From contig NC_014221.1 in assembly GCF_000092425.1 (NCBI RefSeq), forward strand, positions 1,679,001 through 1,743,000: a stretch of 64,000 nucleotides of DNA. The letters are read 5' to 3'. A program made the position numbers and the translations under genes. The notes below the pieces were generated by a model. The model was given only the letters and a program-made list of their open reading frames with translations, did no database searches and was not told the DNA's origin. Every line of letters starts with the position of its first letter. Positions within the stretch are counted from its first letter, which is position 1. The stretch comes from Truepera radiovictrix DSM 17093 (GTDB taxonomy: Bacteria > Deinococcota > Deinococci > Deinococcales > Trueperaceae). Shown here piece by piece: positions 16,756 to 38,789 of the stretch.

Positions 16756-17190
16756 ATGCCCAAACCGCAGGACCCACCCCCCACCCCGCCGCGGCTGCCG
16801 CCGCCCGCCGACACCCTCGCGGTCGCCGCGGGCGGCGCGCTCGGGGCGCTGTTGCGTTACGCCTTCGTGCTCGCTTTCCCAGCGCACGCGGGCGCCTTTC
16901 CCAAGGTCACCTTTTACGAAAACCTCGCGGGCGCCTTTGTCCTGGCCTTCGTCCTCACCGCGCTGCTCGAGCGCTGGCCGCAGCTCGGGCGCCTGCGCGC
17001 GGCGCTCTGCACCGGCGTGCTCGGCTCTTTTACCACCTTCTCGACCTTTAGCTTAGAGCTCCTAGCGCTCGGCTCGAGCGGTGGGCGGCAGACCGCCTCG
17101 CTCTACGCGGTGCTTAGCGTGACGGGCGGGCTCTGCGCCGCCGCCTCGGGGCTGTGGCTCGCGCGGCGCTACGTGGTGGGTCGGCGGTGA
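16756..17190 (+). CDS. crcB: Fluoride channel subunit Fluc/CrcB (first copy)
   Basis: 144 residues with a proline-rich N-terminus and four membrane helices. Family marks are GALLRYAFVLAF (about residue 30), FYENLAGAFVLAF in place of the usual NxxG segment, and GVLGSFTTFSTFSLE (about residues 92-106), whose Phe and Thr/Ser residues line the pore. It exports fluoride passively from the cytoplasm. It overlaps the second copy by GTGA, so the two are probably made together and assemble as a heterodimer. No fluoride riboswitch lies directly in front of this gene; one is found 0.5 kb downstream. Confidence 0.88.
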   Translation: MPKPQDPPPTPPRLPPPADTLAVAAGGALGALLRYAFVLAFPAHAGAFPKVTFYENLAGAFVLAFVLTALLERWPQLGRLRAALCTGVLGSFTTFSTFSLELLALGSSGGRQTASLYAVLSVTGGLCAAASGLWLARRYVVGRR

Positions 17191-17588
17191 AACCGGCCTT
17201 TTTCGTTGCTTTCGCGCTCGCGGGCGCGCTGGGGGTCACCGCCCGCTACCTGCTCGACGTCACCCTCACGACGCGCCTGCGCACCCCCTACTGGAACTGG
17301 GGGGTCTTGAGCGTGAACCTCTCGGGAGCGTTTTTGCTGGGGCTGCTCGTAGACCTCAGCGCGCGCCACCCCCTCCTTGAAGGGTACCGCGTCCTGCTCG
17401 GCAGCGGCTTTTTGGGGGCGTACACGACCTTTTCCACCTGGATGTACGACACCGTGCGGCTGCTGGAGCGCGAACGTTGGCGCGCCGCCTACTTTAGCGC
17501 CGCCCTCGTGCCGCTGCTGGGGGTGGCGCTGATCGCGCTCGGGTTTGCGCTCGCGGCGCAGGGTTCGGGTTGGGCGGGTCTCGGTTAG
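17187..17588 (+). CDS. crcB: Fluoride channel subunit Fluc/CrcB (second copy)
   Basis: 133 residues from the GTG that overlaps the previous stop; a longer upstream start would run into the first copy and is unlikely. Four helices are visible, with GALGVTARYLLD (about residue 12), NLSGAFLLGLL (about 45), the conserved Asn, and GFLGAYTTFSTWMYD (about residues 73-87). The two copies are divergent in sequence, as in heterodimeric Fluc systems of Gram-positive bacteria, where each subunit supplies different pore residues. Confidence 0.88.
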   Translation: MKPAFFVAFALAGALGVTARYLLDVTLTTRLRTPYWNWGVLSVNLSGAFLLGLLVDLSARHPLLEGYRVLLGSGFLGAYTTFSTWMYDTVRLLERERWRAAYFSAALVPLLGVALIALGFALAAQGSGWAGLG

Positions 17589-17601: not shown

Positions 17602-17631
17602 TTTACCCCCGGCCCACGAGGGCGCTACACT
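17602..17631 (+). promoter_or_regulatory. Promoter of the fluoride riboswitch transcript
   Basis: TTTACC (17602-17607) and TACACT (17626-17631) are separated by 18 bp. Transcription would start near 17638, about 35 bases before the riboswitch aptamer. Confidence 0.55.
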
Positions 17632-17670
17632 AGGGTCGGGCGCTCCGGCTCGAGCGCCCGACAAACGGTC

Positions 17671-17746
17671 GTGGCGATGGGTCCCGCCCTCAACCGCCCC
17701 TCGAGGCTGATGGTCCCTACGTCGTTGGCGTAGGGGCCTTTCGTTT
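17671..17746 (+). ncRNA. Fluoride riboswitch (crcB motif) with overlapping terminator
   Basis: The conserved GGCGATGG (17673-17680), CCGCC, CAACC and GCTGATGG...CCTAC (17706-17720) follow the fluoride aptamer order and spacing. The 3' strand GGTCCCTACG (17712-17721) can instead pair with CGTAGGGGCC (17729-17738), giving a 10-bp stem with one G-U pair and a TTTCGTTT tail: an intrinsic terminator. Aptamer and terminator share bases, so fluoride binding should prevent termination and switch on the antiporter gene downstream. The aptamer helix carries one central T-T mismatch. Confidence 0.88.
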
Positions 17747-17874
17747 GCCCGCGTGCGGCCCCTAGCGCCAGGTGAGGAGAACAGGATGCGACATGACGTT
17801 ACCTTCGGCGCTCTCGAGCCAGAGCTACCCCGGCAGACGGGGCATCACGCGGTAGCGGCGCCGGGAGGCCCGAC

Positions 17875-19542
17875 GTGCTAGCGAGCGCGCTGCTCATCTT
17901 GCTGGGCGGCTTTTTCTTCGGGCAGCTCGTCAAACGCCTCGGCGCCCCCCCGCTCGTCGGGATGATCGCCGCGGGGGTGCTCCTCGGCCCGCAGGGGCTC
18001 GACCTGTTGGGCAGCGCGGTGCTGGGGAGCGCCGAGGCGCTGCGCACGGTCGCGGTGATGGTCATCTTGATGAAAGCGGGCCTGGGGCTCGACCGGCAGA
18101 AGCTCAAGGAGCAGGGCACGGTCGCCGCGCGGCTGGGGTTTTTACCGGCGGCCTGTGAGGCGGTGGTGGTGGCGCTGGCCGCGCGCTACCTCTTCGGCTT
18201 CGACCTGCTCACCGGTCTGCTCTTAGGCGTCATCTTGAGCGCCGAGTCGCCGGCGGTCATCGTCCCCGGCATGCTGCGCCTCAAAAGCCTCGGTTGGGGC
18301 GTGCAGAAGGGCGTCCCCGACGCGATCATGACCGGCAGCGCGCTCTCGGACGTGCTGGTGCTGCTGCTCTTTAGCCTGCTGCTGGGCTTTGCGGGGGGTG
18401 AGGGGGCGCACGGCCTGACGCTCGGCGCCTTGACGCTCACGCCGCTTCAAGCCCTGCCGCTGCGGGTACTTGTCGAGATCCTCTTGGGGCTCGCCGTGGG
18501 GTGGCTTGCGGCGCGGCTCACCGTGCACCTCTTGGTCAAACAGAACTGGACCGAGAGCGCCGTGCAGGACGTGATCGTGACCGCGAGCTTGGCGCTCGCG
18601 CTGGTGCTCGGGGCGACCGCGTGGCCCGTCTACTCGGGGTACCTGGCCGTCATGGCGATGGGTTTTTTTCTGGTGCTCTATAGCGCCCCCTTTGCGCGGC
18701 GCGTCCGCGGGGAGTTCGACGGGCTCTGGACGGTCGCCGAGATCGTGCTCTTCGTGCTCTTGGGGGCGACCGTCGACCTCTCGGTGCTGGGCAGCGTGCT
18801 GCTGCCGGGGCTCGCCCTTTTAGCCGTCGGCCTGCTGGTCGGGCGGATGCTCGGGTGGCTGCTCTCGACCTGGGGGAGCAACTGGACCTGGGGGGAGCGG
18901 CTCTTTCTGCTCCCCGGCAACATGGCCAAAGCGACCGTGCAGGCGGCGATCGGCGCCCTGCCGCTCGCCGCGGGCGTCGCGGGCGGCGAGGTGATCCTCG
19001 CGCTCTCGGCGCTCGCCATCCTCGTCACCGCCCCCTTGGGGGCGTGGCTCACCCAGCTGACGGCACCTTTGCTGCTCCAAAAGGGCGAGGTCGACCCGAC
19101 GAAGGTCGCCGTCGCCACGCAGGCGCTCATCTTGGCCGCCGTGGACACCTCGAGCTTGGCCGACGAGGTGCTGCGCAAGGCGGCGGCGCTCGCGCGCCAG
19201 AGCGACGGCAAGGTCACCGTGCTGCACGTCGCCGAAGACACCTCACCGGCAGCGCTCGAGGCGCTTAGCGCGCGCGTCACGCAGAACCTCCTCGACGTCC
19301 GGCACCGCTTCGTCACCGCTGCGGGCCCCACCGCCGAGGCGATCTTGCGCGAGGCGGAGGCCCTTAACGCCACCGAGGTCGTGGTCGGCAAACGCGGCCA
19401 CCGCCCCGCGTGGCAGGTCCCCATCGGTTCGGTGTCGCAGGCGCTTTTGGAGCGCAGCACGCTCCCCTTGATCGTCGTCGAGGGGGCCGCGGAGGCGCCG
19501 CGGCGGGTCGGCGTCTTTCGCGCGCGCCGAGGGCGCCCCTAG
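17875..19542 (+). CDS. Cation:proton antiporter with C-terminal universal stress (Usp) domain
   Basis: 555 residues, GTG start with GGGAGG upstream. Residues 1-400 are a CPA-type antiporter with about 12 helices. They include the opening GQLVKRLGAPPLVGMIAAGVLLGP and SAESPAVIVPGML; the family's ion-site region reads ALSDVLVLLLF. Residues from about 415 form a Usp-like ATP-binding domain (ILAAVDTSSLADEVL, then GKRGH and IGSVSQALLERSTLPLIVV). A fluoride riboswitch lies in its leader, so it is probably made during fluoride stress. It may restore pH or ions when HF carries protons inward (inference). Some fluoride riboswitches are known to precede sodium/proton antiporters. Confidence 0.85.
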   Translation: MLASALLILLGGFFFGQLVKRLGAPPLVGMIAAGVLLGPQGLDLLGSAVLGSAEALRTVAVMVILMKAGLGLDRQKLKEQGTVAARLGFLPAACEAVVVALAARYLFGFDLLTGLLLGVILSAESPAVIVPGMLRLKSLGWGVQKGVPDAIMTGSALSDVLVLLLFSLLLGFAGGEGAHGLTLGALTLTPLQALPLRVLVEILLGLAVGWLAARLTVHLLVKQNWTESAVQDVIVTASLALALVLGATAWPVYSGYLAVMAMGFFLVLYSAPFARRVRGEFDGLWTVAEIVLFVLLGATVDLSVLGSVLLPGLALLAVGLLVGRMLGWLLSTWGSNWTWGERLFLLPGNMAKATVQAAIGALPLAAGVAGGEVILALSALAILVTAPLGAWLTQLTAPLLLQKGEVDPTKVAVATQALILAAVDTSSLADEVLRKAAALARQSDGKVTVLHVAEDTSPAALEALSARVTQNLLDVRHRFVTAAGPTAEAILREAEALNATEVVVGKRGHRPAWQVPIGSVSQALLERSTLPLIVVEGAAEAPRRVGVFRARRGRP

Positions 19543-19589: not shown

Positions 19590-19617
19590 TTGACATCTGA
19601 GCAGATGTTCATACAAT
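19590..19617 (+). promoter_or_regulatory. Metal-responsive promoter with ArsR/SmtB-type operator
   Basis: TTGACA (19590-19595) and TACAAT (19612-19617) are separated by 16 bp. The palindrome ACATCTG-AG-CAGATGT (19593-19608) fills the gap. It matches the 12-2-12-like operators of SmtB/CadC repressors. The ATG of the ATPase is only 6 bases after the -10 box, so the mRNA should be leaderless. Confidence 0.8.
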
Positions 19618-19623
19618 GGTGTC

Positions 19624-21660
19624 ATGACCTGCCCGACCTGCGCCCCCGACGCCCCCTACCCGGAGGCCGATGATGTGAGCGGCTCCACGAACCGTCCCCG
19701 CCGACCCCGGAGCCGGCATCGTCTCGCGACGTGCGCACAGGGCGACGCTGCTACCCGTGAGAGCGCCGCCGAGCAGCTGACCCCCGCCACGCCTTGGTAC
19801 CGGACGGGCGCGGGGGGGCACGCGCTCTGCGTAGGGGTGCTCTTCGCGATGGCCGTCGCCCTCTCGCTCGCCCTCCCGGAGAGGGCCCCTTGGGCCTACG
19901 CGCTCACGACGCTCGTCGGGGCTTGGCCGCTCGCCCGCAAGGCGGCCTCGGGCGCCCTGGCGGGCCGCCCCTTCGGCATGAGCACCTTGGTGAGCCTCGC
20001 CGCCCTCGGCGCGCTGCTCATCGGCGAAGCGGCCGAGGGGGCCCTGGTCGTCACCCTCTTTCTCCTCGGCGAACGCTTGGAGGGCGTCGCGGCGGCGCGC
20101 GCGCGGCGGAGCGTGAGCGCCCTCGCCGCGCTCACCCCGAAGACGGCGCGGGTGCTCGAGGCGGGGGGCGTGCGGGTGCTCAGCGCGGCCTCGTTGCGGC
20201 CGGGGCAGCGGGTGCGGGTCGCCCCCGGCGAGCGCATCCCCGCCGACGGGGTGGTGCTCGAGGGGGCGTCGACCGTCGACGAGAGCCCCCTCACCGGGGA
20301 GAGCGTGCCGCGCTCTCGGGGGGTGGGTGAGGCGGTCTTCGCGGGGAGCGTGAACGGCGAGGGCGCCCTGACCGTCGCGGTGACGCGGCCCGGCGACGAC
20401 AACCTCCTCGCGCGCACCCAGCGCCTGGTCGACGAGGCGCAGCGGCGCCGCTCGCGATCGGAGCGCCTTATTGACCGCTTTAGCCGCCGCTACACCCCCG
20501 GCGTGCTCGCCGCCGCACTCCTCGCGGCCCTCCTCCCCCCGCTCGTGGCGGGGGCGGCTTGGGAGACCTCGCTCTACCGCGCGCTCGCGCTCTTGCTGAT
20601 CGGCTGCCCCTGCGCGCTGGTGCTGGGCGTCCCGGCGGCGATGACGAGCGCCCTCGCCGCGGGCGCCCGCCGCGGCCTGCTCGTCAAGGGCGGCGCGGTC
20701 TTCGAGGCTTTAGCGCGCGTGCGCACCGTCGCTCTCGACAAGACCGGCACGCTCAGCCAAGCGCGGCTCGAGGTCACGGACGTCGTCCCCTTGGGGCGCT
20801 CGGCCGAGGCGGTGCTCGAGCTCGCCGGGGCCGTCGAGGCGACCTCCGCCCACCCGCTCGCCCAGGCCATCACGGCGCACGCCCGCGCGGCGGGGCTCTC
20901 GCTCCCGGAGGTGAGCGCGGCGCAGGCGCTGCCCGGGAGGGCGGTCGCGGGGACCGTGGGGGACGTTCGGGTCGTGGTCGCCTCGCCGCGCTACGCGGCG
21001 CTCCTCACCCCGCTCGGTGGCGCGGTGAGGGCGCGCGTCGCGGCGCTCGAGGCGGCCGGCAAGACGGTCGCCGTCACCCTCGTCGGTGGCGAGGTCGCGG
21101 GGCTCATCGCGCTGCGCGACGCGGTGCGCCCCGAGGCGCGGCGCGCTACCGAGGCGCTGCGGGCGCTCGGCCTGAGGGTGGTGGTGCTCACCGGCGACAA
21201 CCGCCGCGCGGCGGCGGCGCTCGCGGCCCCCCTCGGGCTCGAGGTCCGCGCCGAGCTCCTCCCCGAAGCCAAGCTCCGCTTGGTCGAGCGGCTCGGGCCG
21301 GGCGTCATGATGGTCGGCGACGGCATCAACGACGCCCCCGCCCTCGCCCGGGCGGACGTCGGCGTCGCCATGGGCGGCGGGACGGACGTCGCGCTCGAGA
21401 CCGCCGACGCCGCCCTGCTGCGCGCCGAGCTCACCGGCGTCGCCGACCTCGTCGCGCTCGCGCGCCGGGCGCTGCGCACCGTCCGCGCAAACATCGCCAT
21501 CGCTCTGGGGCTTAAAGCGCTCTTTTTGGCGACCACCCTCCTGGGCGTGACCGGCCTGTGGGCCGCCATCCTCGCCGATACCGGTGCGACCGCTCTGGTC
21601 ACGGCCAACGCCCTGCGGCTCCTGCGCCCTACAACTGCCCCCCGCCCCGGCGGCCGTTAG
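19624..21660 (+). CDS. Heavy-metal-translocating P-type ATPase (P1B, Zn/Cd/Pb type)
   Basis: 678 residues. It pumps divalent metals out using ATP. The transmembrane metal site CPC is in LLIGCPCALVLG (about residue 328), the phosphorylation site DKTGTLS near 375, GDGINDAPALARADVGVAMG near 565, and the actuator loop TGES near residue 224. The N-terminus has no full HMA domain, only a CPTC pair at residues 3-6 and a charged linker; this is a short version of the family. The downstream ArsR gene and the operator in the promoter support a Zn/Cd/Pb exporter. Metal specificity cannot be settled by motif alone. Confidence 0.9.
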   Translation: MTCPTCAPDAPYPEADDVSGSTNRPRRPRSRHRLATCAQGDAATRESAAEQLTPATPWYRTGAGGHALCVGVLFAMAVALSLALPERAPWAYALTTLVGAWPLARKAASGALAGRPFGMSTLVSLAALGALLIGEAAEGALVVTLFLLGERLEGVAAARARRSVSALAALTPKTARVLEAGGVRVLSAASLRPGQRVRVAPGERIPADGVVLEGASTVDESPLTGESVPRSRGVGEAVFAGSVNGEGALTVAVTRPGDDNLLARTQRLVDEAQRRRSRSERLIDRFSRRYTPGVLAAALLAALLPPLVAGAAWETSLYRALALLLIGCPCALVLGVPAAMTSALAAGARRGLLVKGGAVFEALARVRTVALDKTGTLSQARLEVTDVVPLGRSAEAVLELAGAVEATSAHPLAQAITAHARAAGLSLPEVSAAQALPGRAVAGTVGDVRVVVASPRYAALLTPLGGAVRARVAALEAAGKTVAVTLVGGEVAGLIALRDAVRPEARRATEALRALGLRVVVLTGDNRRAAAALAAPLGLEVRAELLPEAKLRLVERLGPGVMMVGDGINDAPALARADVGVAMGGGTDVALETADAALLRAELTGVADLVALARRALRTVRANIAIALGLKALFLATTLLGVTGLWAAILADTGATALVTANALRLLRPTTAPRPGGR

Positions 21661-21669
21661 GATAGAGGG

Positions 21670-22056
21670 GTGAACGCCCCCACCGAACCGGAAACCCTTG
21701 CGGACGCCTGCGACGTGCGGTGCGTGCATCCGGAGGCGGTCGCGCGGGCGCGCGCCGCGCAGCCCGCGGCGGCGCGCGTCGAGGCCGCGGCGCTCCTCCT
21801 TAAAGCGGTCGGCGACCCCACGCGCCTAAGGCTCCTGAGCGCCCTCGCCACCACCGAGCTCTGCGTCTGCGACCTCGCCGCGGTGCTCGGCCTGAGCGAG
21901 TCGGCCGTCAGCCACCAGCTCCGGGTGCTGCGCGTCAGCCGCCTCGTGAGCTACCGCAAGGCGGGCCGCGTCGCCTACTACCGCCTCGCCGACCACCACG
22001 TTCAGAACCTCCTCGAGGACGTTCTCGCGCACGCCGGTGAGGTCGCGCCCACGTAA
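21670..22056 (+). CDS. ArsR/SmtB-family metal-sensing repressor
   Basis: 128 residues, GTG start 9 bases after the ATPase stop. The winged helix has [12 protein letters not shown], then ELCVCDLA, the alpha-3 metal-binding box used by ArsR/CadC sensors, and the recognition helix [12 protein letters not shown]. Further candidate ligands are an N-terminal CDVRCVHP and the C-terminal DHHVQNLL helix, matching the combined CadC/SmtB type. It most likely binds the 19593-19608 palindrome and is released by metal, autoregulating the operon (inference from layout). Confidence 0.9.
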
Positions 22057-38133: not shown

Positions 38134-38604
<471 letters not shown>

Positions 38605-38789
38605 ACCCTATTTTTGCCCGTTCTTGAGGCGGTCTCAAGCGGCTGCGCGCGGCGCGTGCTACGCTGAGGTCGCCTTTTTTGTCGGCGCGCCCCTCGGCGC
38701 GCGACGCGTCACCGACCCCAAGCCAACAGAGCCCCCGAAGGCGTCAGTGGGACGCGCGTGGAAGACTTGCGCCCGCTGACCCCTTTTTG
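38605..38789. other. Gap between rnpB and the mraZ operator
   Basis: Contains CTTGAG-GCGGT-CTCAAG, a 6-bp-stem inverted repeat just after rnpB (about 38622-38640), and a run of CCTTTTTTG near 38671. No open frame with a ribosome site was found. Confidence 0.4.

Follow-up and report, generated by a model that had tools for sequence, protein, structure and literature searches.

A genuine fluoride riboswitch aptamer was confirmed ahead of a gene for a cation/proton antiporter with a C-terminal Usp domain in the window, by which we mean the whole 64,000-nt stretch of Trueperaceae DNA analysed here. We consider it probable that this RNA acts as a fluoride-inducible ON switch, which turns on an NHA2-like Na+ (or K+)/H+ antiporter-Usp that was likely acquired horizontally and lies beside a Fluc pair; a proposed relay of RNA structures in the leader completes the explanation. 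All evidence on the locus is computational: the aptamer match, the hairpin H_A, the complementarity between its 3' arm and a downstream strand S, the protein domains and the family association were each computed. The locus is a conserved variant of known fluoride-riboswitch systems and not a one-genome surprise.

The fluoride aptamer and its pseudoknot

The RF01734 covariance model matched the window above its gathering threshold (E 1.5e-7; Table 1), and this was the single match in the whole 3.26-Mb genome, which consists of a single contig. A preliminary description of this DNA had read the fluoride aptamer blocks in order at 17673-17720, which is where the alignment places them, and had noted that the adjacent crcB genes have no riboswitch of their own. 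The RF01734 searches of the window and the genome bear this out, as no aptamer was found ahead of 16756-17588, and a separate switch for the crcB pair was therefore rejected. Both genes exceed the cutoff of the CrcB/Fluc profile PF02537, and 75 nt separate the end of the pair from the aptamer that follows. Elsewhere in this bacterial family, fluoride aptamers precede genes for enolase (L014), crcB (L016) and an MFS transporter (L018). The antiporter is followed by a separate unit (19590-22056), in which a near-consensus promoter (TTGACA-16-TACAAT) precedes a ZntA-like metal ATPase and an ArsR regulator, and a class A RNase P RNA (RF00010, 271.8 bits) is located at 38135-38607 of the window.

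Table 1. Positions of features around the fluoride riboswitch, numbered within the window
Feature	Positions	Strand	Details
crcB (Fluc) 1	16756-17190	+	PF02537 E 6.5e-22
crcB (Fluc) 2	17187-17588	+	PF02537 E 2.3e-23; GTG start overlaps crcB 1 stop (GTGA)
Weak sigma-70-like promoter candidate	17602-17631	+	TTTACC 17602-17607, 18 nt, TACACT 17626-17631; 8/12 matches, read from sequence
11-bp hairpin, presumed transcript 5' end	17635-17662	+	-23.0 kcal/mol; p 0.002 against shuffles; without U-run
Fluoride riboswitch aptamer (RF01734)	17664-17726	+	39.8 bits, gathering 34; sole one in genome
Aptamer P1	17673-17676/17685-17688	+	RF01734 alignment
Aptamer pseudoknot GGGUCC x GGUCCC	17679-17684 x 17712-17717	+	U.U mismatch at 17682/17714
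Aptamer P3, 3 bp	17696-17698/17705-17707	+	RF01734 alignment
Aptamer GAU block	17709-17711	+	RF01734 alignment
Anti-aptamer hairpin H_A, intrinsic-terminator-like stem	17712-17738	+	10-12 pairs, -20.5 kcal/mol
Mimic strand S	17757-17771	+	GGCCCCUAGCGCCAG; complementary to H_A 3' arm; alternative hairpin 17725-17772
Possible OFF-state hairpin	17764-17812	+	AGCGCCAGGUGA x UUACCU-UC-GGCGCU; encloses SD and ATG of small ORF
Strong Shine-Dalgarno (SD)	17770-17779	+	AGGTGAGGAG; read from sequence
31-codon ORF between switch and antiporter	17786-17881	+	Strong SD; TAG overlaps antiporter start (GTGCTAG)
Cation/proton antiporter with C-terminal Usp	17875-19542	+	555 aa, GTG start, SD GGGAGG 17863-17868

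In the alignment, every ligand-site nucleotide of the window aptamer is intact (AU of loop 1, CUGAUG(G) and the UAC linchpin). The pseudoknot, expected to have 6 bp, consists of five standard pairs and a central U.U mismatch at pair 4, and there is no wobble pair at the platform end (position 1). Six standard pairs are found in 64 of the 66 pseudoknots compared, which were taken from aptamers of Deinococcota and of orthologous loci; the two exceptions are the window and locus L090. Folding of the aptamer by minimum free energy gave no signal, because such simple folding cannot model a pseudoknot. The wobble at the platform end has been found to matter for switching if the remaining pseudoknot is strong, strong pseudoknots without it switched poorly in vitro, and weakening of the third pair alone left the T. 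petrophila switch with ~60% read-through whether fluoride was present or absent (PMC11077080). Counted from the platform end, the mismatch in the window falls on this same third pair. Given the mismatch, the missing wobble and the T. petrophila precedent, the switching strength of the window aptamer is uncertain, and the U.U pair together with the 3-bp P3 may weaken its fluoride binding, which we count against our explanation.

We therefore weighed an unlikely reading in which a transferred aptamer is decaying, its response is weak or absent, and the antiporter is made constitutively or from the crcB transcript. The pseudoknot mismatch and short P3 would fit such decay, as would the score of 39.8 bits, which is below that of most other aptamers scanned, the loss of part of the aptamer in the Methylobacter orthologue L065, and the fact that about half of 80 orthologues are without an aptamer over cutoff. 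The intact ligand site and the retained complementarity of the terminator arm argue against it, and a U.U pair can stack inside a helix. Like other RF01734 switches (the crcB motif of B. cereus and T. petrophila), the window aptamer scores over gathering, keeps the conserved ligand site and is followed by a terminator hairpin that overlaps the pseudoknot; it differs from them in the U.U pair, the absent platform-end wobble, the 3-bp P3 and the additional downstream strand S.

Competing structures in the leader

The promoter scan upstream of the aptamer returned nothing over threshold, which counts against our explanation; the candidate listed in Table 1 is weak. The hairpin between this presumed promoter and the aptamer is very stable. 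H_A begins with the 3' strand of the pseudoknot (17712-17717), so that the two structures are mutually exclusive. Its stability was matched by none of 500 shuffled sequences (p<0.002) and by 0.1% of random windows, and it is followed by the tail UUUCGUUU (17739-17746), a U-rich, imperfect U-tract. A terminator hairpin exclusive with the aptamer and followed by a U-tract is what defines a transcriptional ON switch, and the leader has both, although its U-tract is imperfect; the proposal that the aptamer's 3' strand can form an alternative, terminator-like stem is upheld. The label 'textbook transcriptional ON switch' given to the locus in the preliminary description holds for this hairpin but does not tell the whole story: a covarying relay of translational type is present in orthologous leaders, and its key strand is kept in the window.

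This strand, S, repeats part of the aptamer strand and is placed directly before the Shine-Dalgarno sequence. Its duplex with the H_A 3' arm in the window has a computed energy of -26.7 kcal/mol (p 0.004 against shuffles, 0.002 against random windows), and the alternative hairpin formed by the arm and S (17725-17772) reaches -28.7 kcal/mol. Since a 31-codon ORF follows S and its stop overlaps the antiporter GTG, translational coupling is suggested, with this frame as a possible coupling ORF. Within the antiporter gene, CTA occurs as a codon only once, in this overlap. The U.U mismatch, S (17757-17771) and the small ORF (17786-17881) were all absent from the preliminary description.

No clear U-run accompanies H_A in the orthologues of cyanobacteria and methanotrophs. 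There, the sequence complementary to the loop and 3' arm of H_A, strand S, is found ~35 nt ahead of the start codon, and either S or the adjacent sequence is able to pair with the start region. Across 35 aligned leaders the H_A-S helix was paired in 93.9% of cells, both sides had changed in four of its eight pairs, and the covariation score of the whole structure lay above 500/500 shuffles and all slid controls. As the shuffle control leaves relatedness in, alignment-free tests were added: in 29 of the 55 leaders, among them that of the window, the leader's own S reached p<0.05, and own pairing was better than swapped pairing (Wilcoxon p 1e-6). Ahead of most genes for Thermus/Meiothermus-type antiporters of ~390 aa, a strand such as UCUCCUACCCC lies after the hairpin and directly before the SD, and it too repeats the strand of the aptamer itself; with single-leader p values of 0.003 to 0.2, this is a pattern and not proof. 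No S strand was found at mutS-type genes with fluoride aptamers in the phylum. A conserved upstream ORF in cyanobacteria was also considered and rejected, since the leaders as read hold no comparable frame.

Could H_A act on transcription alone, with the S complementarity a product of chance in GC-rich DNA or a remnant of the cyanobacterial donor? The 12-pair stem with its UUUCGUUU tail, and similar hairpins with T-rich tails at riboswitches elsewhere in the phylum, are compatible with this reading, as is the behaviour of the OFF-state ribosome-site hairpin in the window, which reached p 0.048 against shuffles and was no better than random windows of this GC-rich genome. We also count the weakness of that hairpin against the step of our own explanation in which the SD is masked when S is free, together with the spacing of S, which lies 14 nt from the small-ORF ATG and 103 nt from the antiporter start, compared with ~35 nt in cyanobacteria. 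The significance of the S pairing in the window (p 0.002-0.004) speaks against a purely transcriptional switch, as does the same relation of S in orthologues and before the unrelated Thermus/Meiothermus-type antiporters, where S abuts the SD, and we regard it as doubtful. The leader seems instead to be capable of regulating translation in addition to transcription. Tentatively, we propose a two-level switch in which the pseudoknot, H_A and the pairing of the H_A 3' arm with S would be mutually exclusive and fluoride would relieve both the terminator and the masking of the ribosome site; in cyanobacteria, methanotrophs and Deinococcota alike, fluoride riboswitches that control antiporters could share this relay as a conserved expression platform, which in the window would operate through the coupling ORF.

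The antiporter-Usp protein and its origin

Pfam assigns residues 9-390 of the antiporter to Na_H_Exchanger (PF00999; 116 bits against a cutoff of 26.2) and residues 419-535 to Usp (PF00582), in agreement with the earlier view that the switch lies in the leader of an antiporter carrying a C-terminal Usp domain. A Foldseek search with the AlphaFold model (mean pLDDT 75.7) supported a CPA fold, and the closest solved relatives both by sequence profile and by fold were NHA2 (SLC9B2), followed by NhaP and NapA. NHA2 (PDB 7b4l, 7p1i) was the best profile match (E 3e-41; Foldseek E 1e-13, TMt 0.69); the window protein differs from this mitochondrial Na+/H+ exchanger in having SD in place of DD and a C-terminal Usp domain. 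The adjacent aspartates of the CPA2 ion site are thus replaced by S158-D159, with S158 present in 80/80 homologues and D159 in 76/80, and for this reason electrogenic CPA2 transport should not be assumed. In four riboswitch-associated antiporters (L052, L090, L105, L109) an N replaces the otherwise constant D159. The Usp domain matches MJ0577 in the profile search and contains the ATP-binding motif G-2X-G-9X-G-(S/T) (G505, G508, G518-S519), whose full form G-2X-G-9X-G-S occurs in 68 of 80 homologue rows; this motif favours nucleotide binding, by which the domain may regulate transport.

Because it lacks the CPA2 'DD' motif (S158 is found in all 80 homologues), lies behind a fluoride riboswitch and adjoins crcB, the antiporter domain could also be read as exporting fluoride itself instead of balancing protons and cations. 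This is very improbable, as the fold and the closest solved relatives are those of Na+/H+ exchangers (NHA2) and crcB is already at the locus. We know of no CPA protein for which fluoride transport has been demonstrated.

Full-length antiporter-Usp orthologues (58-66% identity) are almost confined to cyanobacteria and a few methanotrophic Methylococcaceae, and an RF01734 match over cutoff immediately precedes the gene in 41 of 78 orthologous loci scanned, ~100 nt from the start. Selection bias was avoided by searching 244 cyanobacterial genomes, among which 43 encode the protein, 32 have a fluoride aptamer and 19 have both. Without exception among these 19, 80-146 nt lie between the end of the aptamer and the antiporter-Usp gene, so the pairing is the rule and not an oddity. 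The fusion had been called less expected; this does not hold, since it is a conserved family and the target of 19 of the 31 fluoride aptamers over cutoff in these genomes. A crcB gene follows the antiporter directly on the same strand in 6/80 orthologous loci, all six cyanobacterial and three of them with a crcB pair, and the crcB association is therefore also common to orthologues.

Within Deinococcota no other antiporter-Usp was found, the nearest being two proteins with 38-39% identity that match the transporter part alone. In the tree, the window gene groups with those of Gloeocapsopsis, Oculatella and Petrachloros inside the cyanobacterial family (SH-aLRT 96), on a long branch that we count against our explanation. 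The nesting among cyanobacterial genes and the absence elsewhere in the phylum make horizontal transfer likely, and the simplest reading is that the Trueperaceae bacterium probably acquired the gene from cyanobacteria. Alien base composition was rejected as evidence of transfer, as GC and GC3 of the antiporter match those of the neighbouring genes; the gene would then have ameliorated or the transfer be old. The Methylobacter locus L065 shows an apparent internal deletion of the aptamer (~2880-2940), perhaps between two GATGG repeats, and retains the H_A 3' arm and S, which would make it a natural aptamer knock-out.

Proposed mechanism and relation to known systems

In the mechanism that we favour, H_A would capture the 3' strand of the aptamer when fluoride is absent, which could terminate transcription and would leave S free. 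With fluoride bound, the pseudoknot would hold this strand, block H_A and let RNA polymerase read through, and the freed H_A 3' arm would pair with S, so that the ribosome site stays open. We infer that this pairing favours translation of the small ORF and, via the overlap, of the antiporter. The Fluc pair would export F- and the antiporter would restore the balance of protons and cations disturbed by HF entry, so that both products of this entry, fluoride and protons, are dealt with jointly; the ion and the direction of transport are likewise what we infer, and the Usp domain would probably bind ATP or another nucleotide and gate transport.

Our literature searches returned nothing relevant on cyanobacterial fluoride-riboswitch antiporters, and no account of either the S strand or fluoride control of an antiporter-Usp; the supplement of the 2012 Science paper that reportedly defined the fluoride riboswitch may list some of the associations. 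The Usp fusion under fluoride control, its transfer and the relay thus appear to be undescribed in the literature searched. Fluoride riboswitches before antiporters are known, as had been pointed out for this locus: Na+/H+ antiporters are the next-commonest class of target after exporters and have been related to pH homeostasis (PMC11139923). As in those systems, which also occur in Thermus/Meiothermus-type genomes of the same phylum, the switch here precedes a CPA-type antiporter, whereas the riboswitch antiporters of the phylum have ~390 aa and no Usp domain and the window encodes an NHA2-like transporter fused to Usp. In the fluoride operon of E. cloacae FRM (riboswitch, ppaC, uspA, eno, gpmA, crcB), for which induction and a role in resistance were shown experimentally, Usp and crcB are likewise under fluoride-riboswitch control, although the E. 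cloacae UspA stands alone as a protein and the operon lacks an antiporter (PMC5533749). A study in which 1901 switches were assayed considers aptamer and hairpin only in its models (PMC13273304).

The natural pseudoknot mismatch offers a ready test of published strand-exchange models for fluoride riboswitches, and, judging from the covarying downstream strand, many fluoride riboswitches known by their aptamer alone may have a platform that works on translation or at both levels. With the antiporter-Usp as the main fluoride-riboswitch target in the sampled cyanobacteria, the question of why fluoride induces antiporters becomes testable with one protein family.
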